The notes under the pieces: generated by a model | The model's input: only the letters and a program-made list of their open reading frames with translations | Told to the model about the DNA's origin: nothing | Databases searched by the model: none | Shown: positions 54,265-63,694 of the stretch, in pieces | How positions within the stretch are numbered: position 1 is the stretch's first letter | Layout of the letters: every line of letters starts with the position of its first letter | NCBI RefSeq assembly: GCF_011035165.1 | Contig: NZ_CP047588.1 | Span: forward strand, 62,001 to 126,000 | Length of the DNA: 64,000 nucleotides | Source of the DNA: Buchnera aphidicola (Uroleucon sonchi) | Lineage (GTDB): Bacteria; Pseudomonadota; Gammaproteobacteria; Enterobacterales; Enterobacteriaceae | Direction: 5' to 3' | Program-made: the position numbers and the translations under genes

Positions 54265-54270
54265 ATGATT

Positions 54271-54897
54271 ATGAATAAAGAAAAACGTTATAAAATTTTA
54301 TCATTATTTCAAATGAAATATCCTAATCCTGCAACAGAGCTTATTTTTTCTTCTAGTTTTGAATTATTATTGTCTGTCATCTTATCTGCTCAATCTACTG
54401 ATGCAATTGTGAATAAAGTTACTAAAAAATTATTTCGAATAGCAAATACTCCTGAAAAAATTTTATTGTTAGGCGAAAAAGGTCTTAAGTATTATATTAA
54501 AAGTATTGGATTATATAATATTAAATCATCTAATATAATTCATACTTCTTTTTTAATATTAACTAAATATAATGGATATGTTCCCAATAATCGTATCGAA
54601 TTGGAATCTTTACCTGGAGTTGGAAGAAAAACTGCAAATATTATTTTAAATATACTATTTAACAAAAAAACTATTGCTGTAGACACTCATGTATTTAGAG
54701 TATCAAATCGTACTAATTTTGCTACAGGTAAAAATGTTCAAGAAGTTGAAAAAAAATTAATTAAAGTTGTGCCTAGTATTTTTAAATTATCTGTTCATAG
54801 TTGGTTTATTTTGCATGGGAAATATATTTGTACTGCGCGAAAAATTCAATGTAATATATGTTTAATATTTGAATTATGTGAATTTAAAAAAAAATAA
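54271..54897 (+). CDS. nth: Endonuclease III
   Basis: Starting at the second ATG (54271) the 208 aa product matches E. coli Nth (211) from MNKEKRYKIL; ATG 54265 would add two residues. Nth is a DNA glycosylase/AP lyase for oxidised pyrimidines. The catalytic lysine is in LPGVGRKTANIIL and the aspartate in AVDTHVFRVSNR. The C-terminal iron-sulfur loop C-X6-C-X2-C-X5-C (CTARKIQCNICLIFELC) is complete. It precedes priA by eight bases. Confidence 0.97.
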   Translation: MNKEKRYKILSLFQMKYPNPATELIFSSSFELLLSVILSAQSTDAIVNKVTKKLFRIANTPEKILLLGEKGLKYYIKSIGLYNIKSSNIIHTSFLILTKYNGYVPNNRIELESLPGVGRKTANIILNILFNKKTIAVDTHVFRVSNRTNFATGKNVQEVEKKLIKVVPSIFKLSVHSWFILHGKYICTARKIQCNICLIFELCEFKKK

Positions 54898-54905
54898 TAT
54901 ATTTT

Positions 54906-57101
54906 ATGGATACATATGTGATGATTGTGAAAGTTGTTTTACCGTTTTCAATTAGACAACACTTTAAATATATTATACCTGATTTTATGCGTCCCATTAT
55001 TGGGGCGCGTATTTTAGTGCCATTCAATTCAAAAGATGTTGTAGGTATTATAATTGATTTTTATAAAACTAATAGTATCTGTCAATTAAATTTAAAATAT
55101 GCTAAATCATTAATTGATACTCAATCTCTTTATAGTCCAATTGTTTTAGATATTTTAATTTGGATTAGCAAAAATTATCATTGTCCTGTTGGAAATTTAT
55201 TGTTTTCTGTTCTACCAAAATGTTTACGTAAAACTTATGTGTTACAAGATATGATGATAAAATGGACAATAACAAAAAAAGGTCAAACATTAGATTTAAA
55301 TTTTTTAAAAAATAGAAAAAAACAATTATATGCACTACAAACTTTTAGAAAGACTAGTATATTAAATTCTGAATTAAAAAAATACAAATTATCTAAGTTT
55401 ATTTTAAAAAAATTAGAAAATAAAAAATTATGCAAAATAGATGTGTCAAATAATTGCGTTTTACAAGATACATGTCATATGACAATGAAAAAAAAATTTT
55501 TTTTAAATAAAAAAATATTAGTCATAATTAATAACATTTTAAATAAAAAATGTTTTATCTCGTGTTTATTAACAAATATTACTTTATACAATAAAACAAA
55601 ATTTTATTTAGGTTTAATTAAAACTGTATTATTTAACGGTAAACAAGTGCTAATATTAGTTCCTTATATTAAATATATTAATATAATTGTTATGTTTTTA
55701 GAAAAATATTTTAATATTTCTATATATGTTTGTCATGCTAAATTAACTAATAAACAATATTTTACAGTATGGTGGAATATCAAGAATAGTAAATATTCTA
55801 TTGTGATTGGAACAAATAAAAGTATTTTTTTACCTTTTTTAAAATTAGGTTTAATTATTATTCTTGAAGAACATAGTTTAAAATACAAAAACAAAAATCA
55901 ATATAGATATCATATTCGCGATTTAGGGATATTAATAGCTTATAAAACAAATATACCTGTTATTTTAGATTCAAATACTCCTTCATTAAAGACATTATAC
56001 AATATTTTATATAAAAAAAAATGTTTATATATTAGTTTTAATCAATATCATATTTCTGATAAATATAATTATAAAATTATTGATTTAAAAAAAGATAAAA
56101 TAAAATTTCGTTTATCTTTGACTCTAATTAATTCAATTTATGAAAACTGCAAAAATAAACAAGTATTATTGATTTTTAATAAATTTAGTTTGTTATTTTA
56201 TATTTTGACATGCAATGAATGTTCGTGGATATTTACATGTTTTATATGCCAAGAAAATATAGAAATAAATGAATATTGTAATATTTTATTCTGTAAATTT
56301 TGTTTAATTAAGTTAGAAAAACCAAAATTTTGTTATTCTTGCGGGAGTTTATCTTTAATAATTAAAAATATTCATTTAGAAGAAGTAAAAAATAATATAA
56401 AAAATATTTTTCCAAATATTCCATTATTTTTTCTATTTAATAAAAATAAAATTTATAAAAATACATTGAATCAGAATCCTTTTAAAATTTCTTTACCTAA
56501 TCCTTATATTATTGTAACAACAGAAGAAATTGTAGAAAATTATTATTTTCCTAACGTGCAATTAATTGGTTTAATTTGTATTGATCATTATTATTTTTCG
56601 TTTCATTTTCGTTCTATAGAATATTTTTCACAATTTTATCAAAATTTAGATCAATTAACTCGATTTAAAAAAGAATCTTTAACAATCTTGATACAAACAT
56701 CATTGTCAGATACTTTACATTTTAATAAAATATATAATAATAAGTATTATGATTTTGCTGATAAATTGCTATCTATAAGAAAAAATTTTTTACTGCCACC
56801 TTGGAGTTGCCAAAGTATTATTTATGCTGAAAGCATATATTCTGAAGATAATATTATTTTTTTAAATTTAATGCGTAAAATCTTAGAAAAAAAATCCTAT
56901 GAATATAATATTTTTTTATGGTTTATAGGTCCTTATCATTCTGTAGATCTGAAAAATAAAAAAAAATTTTGTAATCAATTATTAATCGAATGTTCTTCAC
57001 GTGTTATTTTAAATGCTTTATTAAATATTTCTATTGATATAATCAATATTTTTACTATTTCAAAACGTGTAAAATGGTTTATAGATATTGAACCTAATTA
57101 A
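54906..57101 (+). CDS. priA: Primosomal protein PriA with degenerate helicase motifs
   Basis: This 731 aa frame aligns with E. coli PriA (732) along its length. The N-terminal DNA-binding part is recognisable (GARILVPFNSKDVVGIIIDF, KNYHCPVGNLLFSVLP). The eight zinc-binding cysteines are kept as four pairs (CNEC, CFIC, CKFC, CYSC). The ATPase/helicase motifs are not: Walker A GVTGSGKTE reads NITLYNKTK (224-232), DEEHD reads LEEHS (320-324), GSATP reads DSNTP, GTQMLAKGHHFP reads TTEEIVENYYFP, and QVAGRAGRA reads QNLDQLTRFK. The C-terminal LPPWS and VKWFIDIEPN are kept. PriA normally restarts replication forks. It may persist as a non-helicase scaffold. Confidence 0.9.
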   Translation: MDTYVMIVKVVLPFSIRQHFKYIIPDFMRPIIGARILVPFNSKDVVGIIIDFYKTNSICQLNLKYAKSLIDTQSLYSPIVLDILIWISKNYHCPVGNLLFSVLPKCLRKTYVLQDMMIKWTITKKGQTLDLNFLKNRKKQLYALQTFRKTSILNSELKKYKLSKFILKKLENKKLCKIDVSNNCVLQDTCHMTMKKKFFLNKKILVIINNILNKKCFISCLLTNITLYNKTKFYLGLIKTVLFNGKQVLILVPYIKYINIIVMFLEKYFNISIYVCHAKLTNKQYFTVWWNIKNSKYSIVIGTNKSIFLPFLKLGLIIILEEHSLKYKNKNQYRYHIRDLGILIAYKTNIPVILDSNTPSLKTLYNILYKKKCLYISFNQYHISDKYNYKIIDLKKDKIKFRLSLTLINSIYENCKNKQVLLIFNKFSLLFYILTCNECSWIFTCFICQENIEINEYCNILFCKFCLIKLEKPKFCYSCGSLSLIIKNIHLEEVKNNIKNIFPNIPLFFLFNKNKIYKNTLNQNPFKISLPNPYIIVTTEEIVENYYFPNVQLIGLICIDHYYFSFHFRSIEYFSQFYQNLDQLTRFKKESLTILIQTSLSDTLHFNKIYNNKYYDFADKLLSIRKNFLLPPWSCQSIIYAESIYSEDNIIFLNLMRKILEKKSYEYNIFLWFIGPYHSVDLKNKKKFCNQLLIECSSRVILNALLNISIDIINIFTISKRVKWFIDIEPN

Positions 57102-57225: not shown

Positions 57226-58494
57226 ATGAGTCAATTTAATTTAATTGAAAGATTACGTGATAGAAATTTAGTATCATATATTTCGCATGAAAATAGTTTA
57301 AACGAAATACTTCAAAATAACTCTATTTCACTTTATTGTGGTTTTGATCCTACAGATAATAGTTTACATATTGGTCATCTTTTGCCTTTGATTACTTTAA
57401 GAAGATTTCAAATATCCGGTCATAAACCTATAGCCCTAATAGGTGGTGCTACCAGTTTAATTGGTGATCCGAGTTTTAAGAAAAAAGAGCGTATTTTTTG
57501 TTCTAAAAATAGTATTAATTTATGGACAGAACAAATTAGTAAACAAATTTCTTATTTTTTAGATTTTAACTGCGGAGATAAAAGTGCAGTTTTATTAAAC
57601 AATAATATGTGGTTCAATGAAATTAATATTTTAACTTTTTTACGTGATGTCGGAAAACATTTTTCGATTAATACTATGATTAATCGAACTGCAGTTAAAC
57701 AAAGAATAATTAGACCTGATCAAGGTATTTCATTTACAGAATTTTCTTATAATTTATTACAAGCATATGATTTTTTTATTTTACATCAGAAATATAAAGT
57801 GTTACTCCAAATTGGAGGAGCAGATCAATGGGGTAATATTTCTTCTGGTATGCATTTGATTTATCGCAAAAACCGAAAAAAAGTTTTTGGTTTAACTATC
57901 CCACTTTTAATTCAATCTAATGGAATTAAATTTGGAAAAACAGAATCTGGAACTATATGGTTAAATTCTGATAAAACTAGTCCTTATAAATTTTATCAAT
58001 TTTGGATGAATATAGATGATTCTAATGTTTATTATTTTTTAAAAATGTTTACTTTTTTAGATATTTTAGAAATTAATCAAAGAGAGAAAGAAAGGCATAT
58101 TGGAAATAATATTATTTATGACAAATCTTGTCTTGCAAAAAGTATTACTGAATTAGTTCATGGAAAAGAAAATTTATTATCCGTTGAACGTATCACTAAT
58201 TTTCTTTTTTCAAAAAAAAATATACATATTAAAGAATCTGATTTCGATCAATTAAAACAAGATGGTATACCATCAGAACAAGCACATAATATAAAAGATT
58301 TACAAGACGCATTAGTTTTGACTGGATTAGCAAAGTCTCGAACTCAGGCTAAAAATATGATTATTTCAGATTCTATTTCAATTAATCGACAAAAAATAAG
58401 AAAAAATCATATTTTTAATAATCAAGATAAATTTTTTGGCAAGTTTACTTTGTTATCTAGAGGTAAAAAAAATCATTCTTTATTGTGCTGGTAA
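57226..58494 (+). CDS. tyrS: Tyrosyl-tRNA synthetase
   Basis: This 422 aa class I synthetase (E. coli 424) has the HIGH motif in DPTDNSLHIGHLLPL (41-55), the tyrosine-binding LLQIGGADQWGNI, and KFGKT in NGIKFGKTESGTIWL. The C-terminal S4-like domain is present (LALTGLAKSRTQAKNMI-type). AGAAGG precedes the ATG. Its 3' end overlaps the convergent sufA gene by 22 bp. Confidence 0.97.
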   Translation: MSQFNLIERLRDRNLVSYISHENSLNEILQNNSISLYCGFDPTDNSLHIGHLLPLITLRRFQISGHKPIALIGGATSLIGDPSFKKKERIFCSKNSINLWTEQISKQISYFLDFNCGDKSAVLLNNNMWFNEINILTFLRDVGKHFSINTMINRTAVKQRIIRPDQGISFTEFSYNLLQAYDFFILHQKYKVLLQIGGADQWGNISSGMHLIYRKNRKKVFGLTIPLLIQSNGIKFGKTESGTIWLNSDKTSPYKFYQFWMNIDDSNVYYFLKMFTFLDILEINQREKERHIGNNIIYDKSCLAKSITELVHGKENLLSVERITNFLFSKKNIHIKESDFDQLKQDGIPSEQAHNIKDLQDALVLTGLAKSRTQAKNMIISDSISINRQKIRKNHIFNNQDKFFGKFTLLSRGKKNHSLLCW

Positions 58495-61765: not shown

Positions 61766-63694
61766 ATGCCTGTAATAAGATTTTGCGATGGAAGTCAACA
61801 GGTGTACGAGAATTCTATTGCATTAATAGAAATTATTAAAAATAAATATCCTAATATCATTAAGTCTCTTATTGCAATTTCTATAAATAATCATTTTGCT
61901 AATTTAAATTTTATAATCACACAAGATTCTATTGTAAAATTCATCAGCAAACAAGACTCTCAAGCATTAGATATTATTCGGTATTCTTGTGCACAACTTT
62001 TAAGTTATGCTATAAAAAATATATGGCCATATGGGAAAATTGCTGAAATTAATATTTCAAAGGATGGTTTTTATTGTGATATAGATTTGAAAGATCAGAT
62101 TACCATTAAAGATCTTTTAATATTAGAAAATCAAATGAAACTTTTGATTAAAAAAAAATATGATATTGTAAATAAGTTTGTTTCTCATTCTAAAGCTAAA
62201 AAAATATTTCAAGCATATAATGAAACATATAAAATATTTTTTATAAATAATAGTGTTGATCCTAATATTAATGTTTCTTTATATTATCATGAAAATTATG
62301 TAGATTTTGATATTGGCATGCAAGTATATAATATAAAATTTTGTGATCATTTTAAATTGCAAAATATAGGAGGTGTTTATTGGAAAGGAAATAAAAAAAA
62401 TAAGATGTTACAACGTATTTATGGTACCGCTTGGTCTAATCAAGAAGAATTGAAAAAACATCTAAAATACTTAAATGAATTAGACAAAAGAGATCACAGA
62501 AAGATTGGGAAACATCTTGAGTTATATCATATGCAAGAAGAATCTCCAGGTATGATTTTTTGGCACGATAAAGGTTGGATTATTTTTAATGAATTACAAA
62601 ATTTTGTACGATTAAAATTAAAAGAATATCAGTATGAAGAAGTTAAAACACCGTTGTTGATAGATAAATCAATATGGGAGAAAAGCGGACACTGGGATAA
62701 TTATAAAAATGCGATTTTTACGACGTTATCAGAACATCGAGAATATTGTATTAAACCTATGAACTGTCCTGGTCATCTGCAAATTTTTAATAGTAAATTA
62801 AAATCTTATCGAGATTTACCTATTCGTATGGCAGAATTTGGTAGTTGTCATCGCAATGAACCTTCAGGGTCTTTACATGGTCTTATGCGTGTACGTAATT
62901 TTACGCAAGATGATGCGCATATATTTTGTACGCGAGAACAAGTACGTACTGAAATTAATGATTGTATTAAAATGATATATGATTTATATAGTATATTTAA
63001 TTTTAAAAAAATATTAGTTAAATTATCTACACGTCCAGATAAACGCATTGGAACTGATATTTTATGGGATGAAGCAGAAAAAGATTTATCTGATATGCTA
63101 ATAAAAAATCATTTATCATTTGAATATCAATTAGGAGAAGGCGCTTTTTATGGGCCTAAAATTGAATTTATTTTACAAGATTCTTTAGATAGAAATTGGC
63201 AATGTGGAACAATTCAACTTGATTTTTATTTACCATTACGTTTAAATTCATTTTATATCAATAAAGACAATGAACGTCAAGTTCCTATTATGATTCATCG
63301 TGCAATACTAGGTTCAATAGAACGTTTTATTGGTATATTAATTGAAGAATCTTCAGGGAATTTACCAACATGGTTATCTCCAATACAAGTAGTTTGCGTA
63401 AGTGTTGCAAATGTTAATGACAAATATATTAAAAAATTGATTAAAAAATTTTCTAGTAGTAATATTCGTATAAAATCAGATTTAAGAAACGAAAAAATAG
63501 GTTTTAAAATTCGAGAACATATATTACATAAAATACCCTATATTATTATTTGCGGTGAAAAAGAAATTAATTCTAAAAAAATATCTGTGCGTAATAGAAA
63601 AGGTAAGAATTTTAATATGATTGATGTTAATGTTTTTATTGAAAAGTTACGAAATGAAATCATAAATCGTGATTTTCATCAAATGGAGGAATAA
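61766..63694 (+). CDS. thrS: Threonyl-tRNA synthetase
   Basis: The 642 aa length equals E. coli ThrS. The order is N-terminal TGS and editing domains (residues 1 to about 225, diverged), class II catalytic domain, and anticodon-binding domain. Zinc ligands are in KPMNCPGHLQIF, DDAHIFC and VPIMIHRAILGS. Motif 2 is RMAEFGSCHRNEPSGSLHGLMRVR. infC follows with four bases between the thrS stop and the infC start codon. An 8-bp hairpin (61715-61733) lies in the leader but shows no tRNA-Thr anticodon mimicry. Confidence 0.98.
   Translation: MPVIRFCDGSQQVYENSIALIEIIKNKYPNIIKSLIAISINNHFANLNFIITQDSIVKFISKQDSQALDIIRYSCAQLLSYAIKNIWPYGKIAEINISKDGFYCDIDLKDQITIKDLLILENQMKLLIKKKYDIVNKFVSHSKAKKIFQAYNETYKIFFINNSVDPNINVSLYYHENYVDFDIGMQVYNIKFCDHFKLQNIGGVYWKGNKKNKMLQRIYGTAWSNQEELKKHLKYLNELDKRDHRKIGKHLELYHMQEESPGMIFWHDKGWIIFNELQNFVRLKLKEYQYEEVKTPLLIDKSIWEKSGHWDNYKNAIFTTLSEHREYCIKPMNCPGHLQIFNSKLKSYRDLPIRMAEFGSCHRNEPSGSLHGLMRVRNFTQDDAHIFCTREQVRTEINDCIKMIYDLYSIFNFKKILVKLSTRPDKRIGTDILWDEAEKDLSDMLIKNHLSFEYQLGEGAFYGPKIEFILQDSLDRNWQCGTIQLDFYLPLRLNSFYINKDNERQVPIMIHRAILGSIERFIGILIEESSGNLPTWLSPIQVVCVSVANVNDKYIKKLIKKFSSSNIRIKSDLRNEKIGFKIREHILHKIPYIIICGEKEINSKKISVRNRKGKNFNMIDVNVFIEKLRNEIINRDFHQMEE

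Follow-up and report, generated by a model that had tools for sequence, protein, structure and literature searches.

Degenerate helicase motifs in a selectively maintained PriA throughout Buchnera

PriA of Buchnera has lost the key motifs of its helicase motor throughout the genus, and its gene is still under purifying selection. We came upon this in a window of 64,000 nucleotides (positions 62,001 to 126,000 of contig NZ_CP047588.1) from Buchnera aphidicola of Uroleucon sonchi, in which the gene is full-length and open. Because the key motifs are lost while the gene remains under selection, PriA is here probably a passive docking platform and not an engine, and the reading that we consider likely is that the protein has ceased to be an ATP-driven helicase and has been maintained as a platform for replication restart. 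A genus that lives without the PriA motor and still selects for the protein would be a natural separation-of-function experiment, showing which parts of PriA are still worth having once repair has been reduced to the bare essentials.

The window priA is a single uninterrupted frame (Table 1). Its translation bore out the description in an earlier note made from the sequence of the window, namely a 731-codon frame with no stop that keeps eight zinc cysteines (C436, C439, C445, C448, C463, C466, C476 and C479) and the LPPWS block. The homologous start is probably the ATG at codon 6, since 17 of the 27 open Buchnera frames are cut off by a stop codon immediately 5' of window residue 5. The protein scores 258.4-259.6 bits with TIGR00595 (cut-off 230.35) and 477.5 bits with NF004065 (cut-off 858), and the PriA chains of E. 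coli and Klebsiella match it across its full length. In Pfam searches the DEAD lobe was found with 31.6 bits (cut-off 26) and Helicase_C just under its cut-off; together with the fold match described below, these hits give the PriA domain order of 3'-DNA-binding domain (3'BD), winged helix (WH), helicase lobes with inserted zinc region (CRR) and C-terminal domain (CTD). LPPW stands immediately ahead of the CTD, and G674 and P675 (E. coli numbering, as for the residues below) are retained in the genus, as are for the most part F16 and K61 of the 3'BD. We take the window gene to be a true PriA ortholog. It is also the sole copy, as had been claimed: the 614,349-base genome yields one match above the TIGR00595 cut-off, at 259.6 bits, which rules out a second, intact PriA elsewhere. 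Two weaker TIGR00595 matches are frames with intact Walker motifs, presumably Mfd and a DEAD-box protein. The flanking genes, which from their sequences we take to be nth (endonuclease III) upstream and tyrS (tyrosyl-tRNA synthetase) downstream, stand in the same order around priA in the Buchnera of Pemphigus obesinymphae (L104).

Table 1. Features of the priA region, in window coordinates
Feature	Position	Strand	Remarks
priA	54906..57101	+	731-codon frame; PriA family matches; probable functional start ATG 54921 (codon 6)
3'-DNA-binding domain (3'BD)	54930..55217	+	PF17764, 72.8 bits
Winged-helix domain (WH)	55260..55436	+	PF21213, 25.8 bits, just short of the cut-off of 27
Walker A (motif I), degenerate	55575..55607	+	NITLYNKTKFY; glycines lost, K230 and T231 kept
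Walker B (motif II), degenerate	55863..55877	+	LEEHS; D320 lost, E321, E322 and H323 kept
Motif III	55965..55991	+	LDSNTPSLK, LGSATPALE in other PriA; D355 in 36/36 Buchnera
Cysteine-rich zinc region (CRR)	56211..56342	+	C436 to C479, all eight cysteines; PriB-docking D438, T482 and H483 replaced
Motif V region	56517..56552	+	TTEEIVENYYFP, GTQMLAKGHHFP in others
Motif VI position	56643..56666	+	NLDQLTRF, QVAGRAGR in others; arginine finger lost
C-terminal domain (CTD)	56799..57095	+	PF18074, 26.9 bits, at the cut-off
Upstream neighbour, nth-like	54265..54897	+	Control gene; omega 0.080
Downstream neighbour, tyrS-like	57226..58494	+	Control gene and synteny marker; omega 0.071

The motif readings given earlier (NITLYNKTK, LEEHS, LDSNTP, and ENYYFP at the KGHHFP motif) were confirmed, with NLDQLTRF where QVAGRAGR would be expected, and the window protein is changed at positions 224, 227, 229, 320 and 584, which carry the Walker A, Walker B and arginine-finger signature of an active SF2 DNA helicase. 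That every helicase motif is destroyed, as the earlier note put it, holds in so far as the motifs are broken and goes too far for single residues, K230, T231, E321, E322, H323, T358, P359, T539 and F548 being kept. Across the genus, none of the 36 genomes retains G224, G227, S228, D320, G355, A357, G538, G545, Q580, V581, G583 or R584, and one retains G229; residue 230 is lysine in 34 and arginine in two, and E321, E322 and H323 are found in 33, 36 and 35 genomes, respectively. All eight zinc cysteines are present in all 36, broken copies included. Judged by these residues, the whole genus has lost the glycine loop, the aspartate that binds magnesium and the arginine finger, one lysine and the EEH stretch persisting, and the PriA motor is almost certainly dead. 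The loss, common to all 36 genomes, is an old one, and intact motifs in close relatives, which would have pointed to a recent local loss, were found in none. A general decay of P-loops is likewise ruled out by the Mfd-like and DEAD-box proteins of the window genome, which retain G-x-GKT and DEEH/DEAD, and by its intact DnaC-type protein. The threonine at Walker A position 231 (codon 55596-55598) occurs in the window genome alone among the 36, the others having V or I, and so may be a reversion.

K230, E321, E322 and H323 could in principle form a degenerate ATP-binding switch that permits a conformational change without processive unwinding, a use that their frequencies in the genus would fit, as would K230 in 20 of 20 other degenerate PriA copies counted. 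Nevertheless, this residual nucleotide use is very improbable: G224, G227, D320 and R584 are lost in 36/36 genomes and G229 in 35/36, AT-rich composition may by itself favour an AAA lysine, and K230R alone is reported to abolish the E. coli ATPase (PMC4504706).

The gene is under purifying selection. A codon model fitted to the 27 open Buchnera frames gave an omega of 0.133 for priA overall, with 0.130 for the 3'BD, 0.148 for WH, 0.122 for HD1, 0.110 for the zinc region, 0.148 for HD2 and 0.140 for the CTD. When omega is fixed at 1 and kappa kept as fitted, the log-likelihood falls by 1521.5 units for the whole gene and by 76.7 for the domain with the smallest difference. Hence a dN/dS near 1 in the gene or in its zinc domain, the sign by which the earlier note would have recognised decay, is absent, and the combination of a disrupted frame with an omega near 1 that defines a pseudogene is not found in the window. 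Four smaller clades gave 0.097-0.133, and all 36 genomes, with broken pieces read in their own frames, 0.130; for Wolbachia priA, a Ka/Ks of 0.143-0.147 has been reported (PMC4224334). The neighbouring control genes give lower values (nth 0.080 in 35 genomes, tyrS 0.071 in 36), and the constraint on priA is thus somewhat looser. HD1 shows no less constraint than the DNA-binding domain, so the degenerate sequence has been conserved in its own right. Eleven columns have become fixed, in 90% or more of Buchnera, for a residue other than that of PriA in general, with G355D and V581L in 36/36; AT-rich codon bias may favour some of the new residues (K, N, I, F, L), which is less obvious for G355D. 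The idea of an ATPase-dead scaffold under selection is thus supported by omega and by the lack of an intact relative, and its scaffold part would follow from the comparisons given below.

To see which parts were given up, we used 121 reference columns, each conserved to 95% or more among 104 other PriA proteins, and called a column kept at ≥90% and lost at ≤10% in Buchnera. The comparison set consists of the 30 best-scoring proteins from a search for PriA and 74 loci from a pattern search in which 80 of 283 loci were kept; as the patterns cover motif III and some of the zinc region, the 8/8 zinc score and the completeness of this set are partly selected. Buchnera retains 52 of the 121 columns and has lost 50: 26/57 in HD1, 21/31 in HD2, 2/13 in the CRR, 1/8 in the CTD, 0/11 in the 3'BD and 0/1 in WH/linker. 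The helicase lobes have therefore lost 47/88 columns compared with 3/32 in the 3'BD, CRR and CTD together (Fisher p 7.5e-6, with non-independent columns and shared ancestry ignored); a finer test of core-motif columns against the others gave p = 0.054, the domain-level test being the clearer. Among the residues that we take to line the SSB pocket, a list presumed by us except for R697 of Klebsiella, W83 is kept in 35/36 genomes, K371 in 36/36, R698 in 27/36, Y87 in 14/36 and Q702 in 7/36. D17 of the 3'-end pocket is lost in 36/36. A review names R697 of Klebsiella PriA as an SSB-pocket residue and calls D17 crucial for recognition of the 3' base (PMC4129139).

A priA match was found in all 36 genus genomes searched, as one open frame in 27, including the window, and broken in nine. 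Eight of the nine broken genes lie in two pieces, and at each junction there are 9-12 consecutive A or T, within which the break presumably sits (L018, L019, L022, L025, L026, L027, L028 and L038); priA of G008 has at least two junctions. Six of the eight breaks at A/T runs lie close to the WH/linker stretch (window residues 138-204). For trios that include a broken copy omega was 0.043-0.145 and for control trios 0.060-0.133, rough estimates as several trios are distant; because the two ranges overlap, the breaks are either of recent date or read through, or else they are sequencing errors. A rescue of such breaks by slippage during transcription has been suggested, and a genome-wide Buchnera study reports no frame-restoring case (PMC5574713). 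Most of the winged helix, 61-67 residues, is missing from nine Buchnera genomes, eight with open frames, in which the deletion is in frame, and one with a broken frame (loci L030-L037 and L038). In one further case (L029; G030) the loss of the winged helix is partial.

With 9/36 frames broken, a slow loss may be under way in some lineages, and one could read the whole genus in this way: in a symbiont without RecA and PriB, PriA would be dispensable, the selection would reflect a weak or past role, and broken frames would be the next step. The largely deleted winged helix of the nine genomes and the higher omega of priA relative to its neighbours are in line with such a slow death, and so are two further genomes that contain DnaT with no usable PriA, namely G053 (L092, L195), where PriA survives as scattered pieces in different frames, and G134, where nothing beyond a 3.4e-4 match was found. 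We regard it as unlikely in view of the omega of 0.133, the 27 open frames, the newly fixed derived residues, the overlap of broken-copy and control trios (with the roughness just mentioned) and the eight zinc cysteines kept even in broken copies. That a pseudogene or an assembly artefact has been taken for a gene, as the broken frames and the A/T runs at eight junctions might suggest, is extremely improbable, given the open frames in 27/36 genomes including the window, an omega far below 1 and the adjoining tyrS in relatives.

An AlphaFold2 model of the window PriA (alignment of 36 PriA proteins) has a mean pLDDT of 81.7 and a pTM of 0.79. Its best matches in the PDB are PriA chains (6dgd_A with TM 0.77/0.80, 4nl4, 6dcr and 8fak), followed far more weakly by Mfd, and the matches to 6dgd and 4nl4 extend over the whole chain. 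As the alignment consists mainly of motif-intact PriA, the model indicates that the sequence is compatible with the PriA fold, which falls short of proof.

The partner proteins of Buchnera point in the same direction as the favoured reading of a restart platform. DnaT is present in 36/36 genomes (intact, 172 aa, in the window genome), as is a DnaC-type loader detected by an IstB/DnaC-like profile (P-loop intact in the window genome). Profile searches found neither PriB, PriC nor RecA above cut-off in any of the 36; for RecA this matches a published survey (PMC1193525). Matches of 24.6-28.3 bits to PriB fall in frames of 172-204 aa, and the one in the window genome is SSB, with its DFDDDIPF tail retained, so that a hidden PriB was rejected. 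The PriB-docking residues D438, T482 and H483 are each kept in 0/36 genomes, and replacing D438 or H483 by alanine greatly weakens the binding of PriB in E. coli (PMC10175261); a PriA-PriB-DnaT preprimosome with PriB docked on these residues is thus not what Buchnera has. That PriB and its dock have faded side by side leads to a testable prediction on the purpose of PriB.

In E. coli, fork binding is described to swing the zinc region so that a pore forms round the lagging strand and to expose docks for PriB on the zinc region and for DnaT on HD2/CTD, and the helicase activity serves when the lagging arm is duplex (PMC10175261, PMC13377028). The preprimosome structures have DnaT docked directly on PriA HD2/CTD (PMC13377028). 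Buchnera shares with this PriA-PriB-DnaT preprimosome the domain order, the zinc region, DnaT and a DnaC-type loader (PMC10175261, PMC13377028), and differs from it in having no PriB above cut-off, in the replaced D438, T482 and H483 and in the lost helicase motifs. We infer a scaffold role from the E. coli precedent of ATPase-dead PriA, the presence of DnaT and a DnaC-type loader in 36/36 genomes and the kept zinc fold. In the mechanism that we propose as the simplest, PriA would bind forks whose lagging arm is already single-stranded and coated with SSB, thread the strand through the zinc-region pore and, with no need of PriB, take up DnaT directly on the surface of its HD2 and C-terminal domain; DnaT would then bring DnaC-DnaB, and unwinding of a duplex lagging arm would have been abandoned. 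For the loading of DnaB we lean towards this DnaT route.

Several findings weigh against these proposals. A simple E. coli-like scaffold fits poorly with the missing PriB, its lost dock and the loss of D17 in 36/36 genomes. The restart platform more generally is opposed by the losses in HD2, part of the DnaT dock (21/31 conserved columns), the nine broken frames, an omega above that of both neighbours, an SSB pocket only partly kept, the absent D17, the retention of DnaT without a usable PriA in G053 and G134, and the failure to find DnaT in 11/21 genomes with degenerate PriA. The lost PriB dock and D17 pocket, the new residues fixed in the dead site and the DnaT of G053 and G134 could also mean that PriA has left restart altogether and become a structural protein that binds DNA or SSB, for instance together with DnaT and DnaC at the origin. 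Such moonlighting seems to us improbable, as the PriA-compatible fold and the zinc ligands are kept and DnaT and the DnaC-type loader are retained alongside PriA in 36/36 genomes.

The E. coli mutants K230R and K230A, which we take to be of the priA300 type, are engineered single changes in a cell with PriB and PriC, whereas the loss in Buchnera is natural and genus-wide, with neither partner detected. ATPase-dead E. coli PriA is reported still to assemble primosomes (PMC4504706), and K230A PriA was used in E. coli DnaB-loading assays (PMC10175261). The E. coli PriA without winged helix in PDB 6dcr resembles the nine WH-deleted Buchnera proteins; it is engineered, with helicase motifs presumably intact. 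PriA helicase motifs have been described as well conserved across bacteria and ATPase-dead E. coli mutants as viable (PMC4504706). The earlier note called a helicase-dead PriA as sole copy unusual, which holds; a published precedent exists in Deinococcus radiodurans, whose PriA has been shown biochemically to be a pseudohelicase that binds DNA and DnaB without ATPase or unwinding activity (Lopper et al. 2015, PMC4504706). The kind is therefore already known. Buchnera PriA would belong to it by its degenerate ATPase motifs in an otherwise conserved protein, and both proteins have lost the Walker A/B consensus and kept the remainder. However, the Walker A lysine is arginine in Deinococcus and is kept in 34/36 Buchnera genomes, whereas the glycines and D320 are missing in Buchnera, as is a large part of motifs III, V and VI; moreover, Buchnera belongs to a different phylum, lacks PriB and its dock and, in nine genomes, has lost the WH. 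On its motifs, Buchnera PriA thus appears to be a separate and more extreme variant. Among the titles and abstract openings of the open-licence papers listed, we found no report of a helicase-dead PriA in Buchnera, and a published inventory lists the Buchnera protein (BU120) as an ATP-using primosome helicase (PMC6389857), an assignment that the present evidence contradicts.

Degenerate PriA is not confined to the genus. We counted 20 other copies, nine from Buchnera sensu lato (eight with tyrS adjoining, and L104) and 11 from other symbionts, with L076, L084, L085 and L087 counted from fragments and with L077 and L091 (in-frame TGA) and L092 (a remnant) left out. These keep 2 to 11 of 14 catalytic residues (12-14 aligned), whereas the 104 comparison proteins, like those of five symbionts of the Pantoea edessiphila type, have 14/14, and all 20 have the eight zinc cysteines. 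L072 retains Walker B and the SGKTE of Walker A and has lost motif VI; L073 retains SGKT but has D320N. Different motifs fell in different lineages. In a PriA tree the intact Pantoea edessiphila proteins lie between degenerate groups, at forks with 85-93% support and a long-branch warning. The non-Buchnera symbiont label needs three changes on this tree, two forced by well-supported branches, gains and losses being indistinguishable and long branches flagged.

We also classed 59 chosen genomes, nearly all small, by their PriA score (other small genomes, such as G048, G064, G071, G072, G090 and G114, lie outside this set): 15 were intact-scoring, 21 degenerate and 23 absent, the last meaning a weak, partial or no match. 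PriB was above cut-off in 10/15, 2/21 and 0/23 of them, respectively (Fisher p = 0.0008, or 0.009 without Buchnera sensu lato, both uncorrected for kinship), and the two PriB-keeping exceptions with degenerate PriA, G215 (L071) and G101 (L073), carry two of the three copies that are least degenerate within the 20. DnaT was found in 10/21 genomes with degenerate PriA (eight of them Buchnera sensu lato), 1/15 intact-scoring and 2/23 absent. PriB with intact-scoring PriA and DnaT mostly with degenerate PriA form almost complementary sets in the 59 genomes. Because G053 and G134 keep DnaT without a usable PriA, its retention alone is no proof of PriA-dependent restart, and these two genomes warn that DnaT can have another use. 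As a tentative generalisation, which we put at somewhat less than an even chance, insect symbionts may repeatedly have turned PriA into an ATP-free platform as PriB was lost. This would be a second minimal restart mode (pseudo-PriA, DnaT and DnaC, without PriB, PriC or RecA) beside that of PriA helicase with PriB, the dead ATP site being rebuilt as a newly conserved structural or binding surface.

The two copies with in-frame TGA carry it at tryptophan positions, L077 (G150) at those of E. coli-type W333 and W441 and L091 (G136) at that of W289, and another TGA of L091 falls at an alignment gap, which suggests that TGA may be read as Trp in these symbionts.
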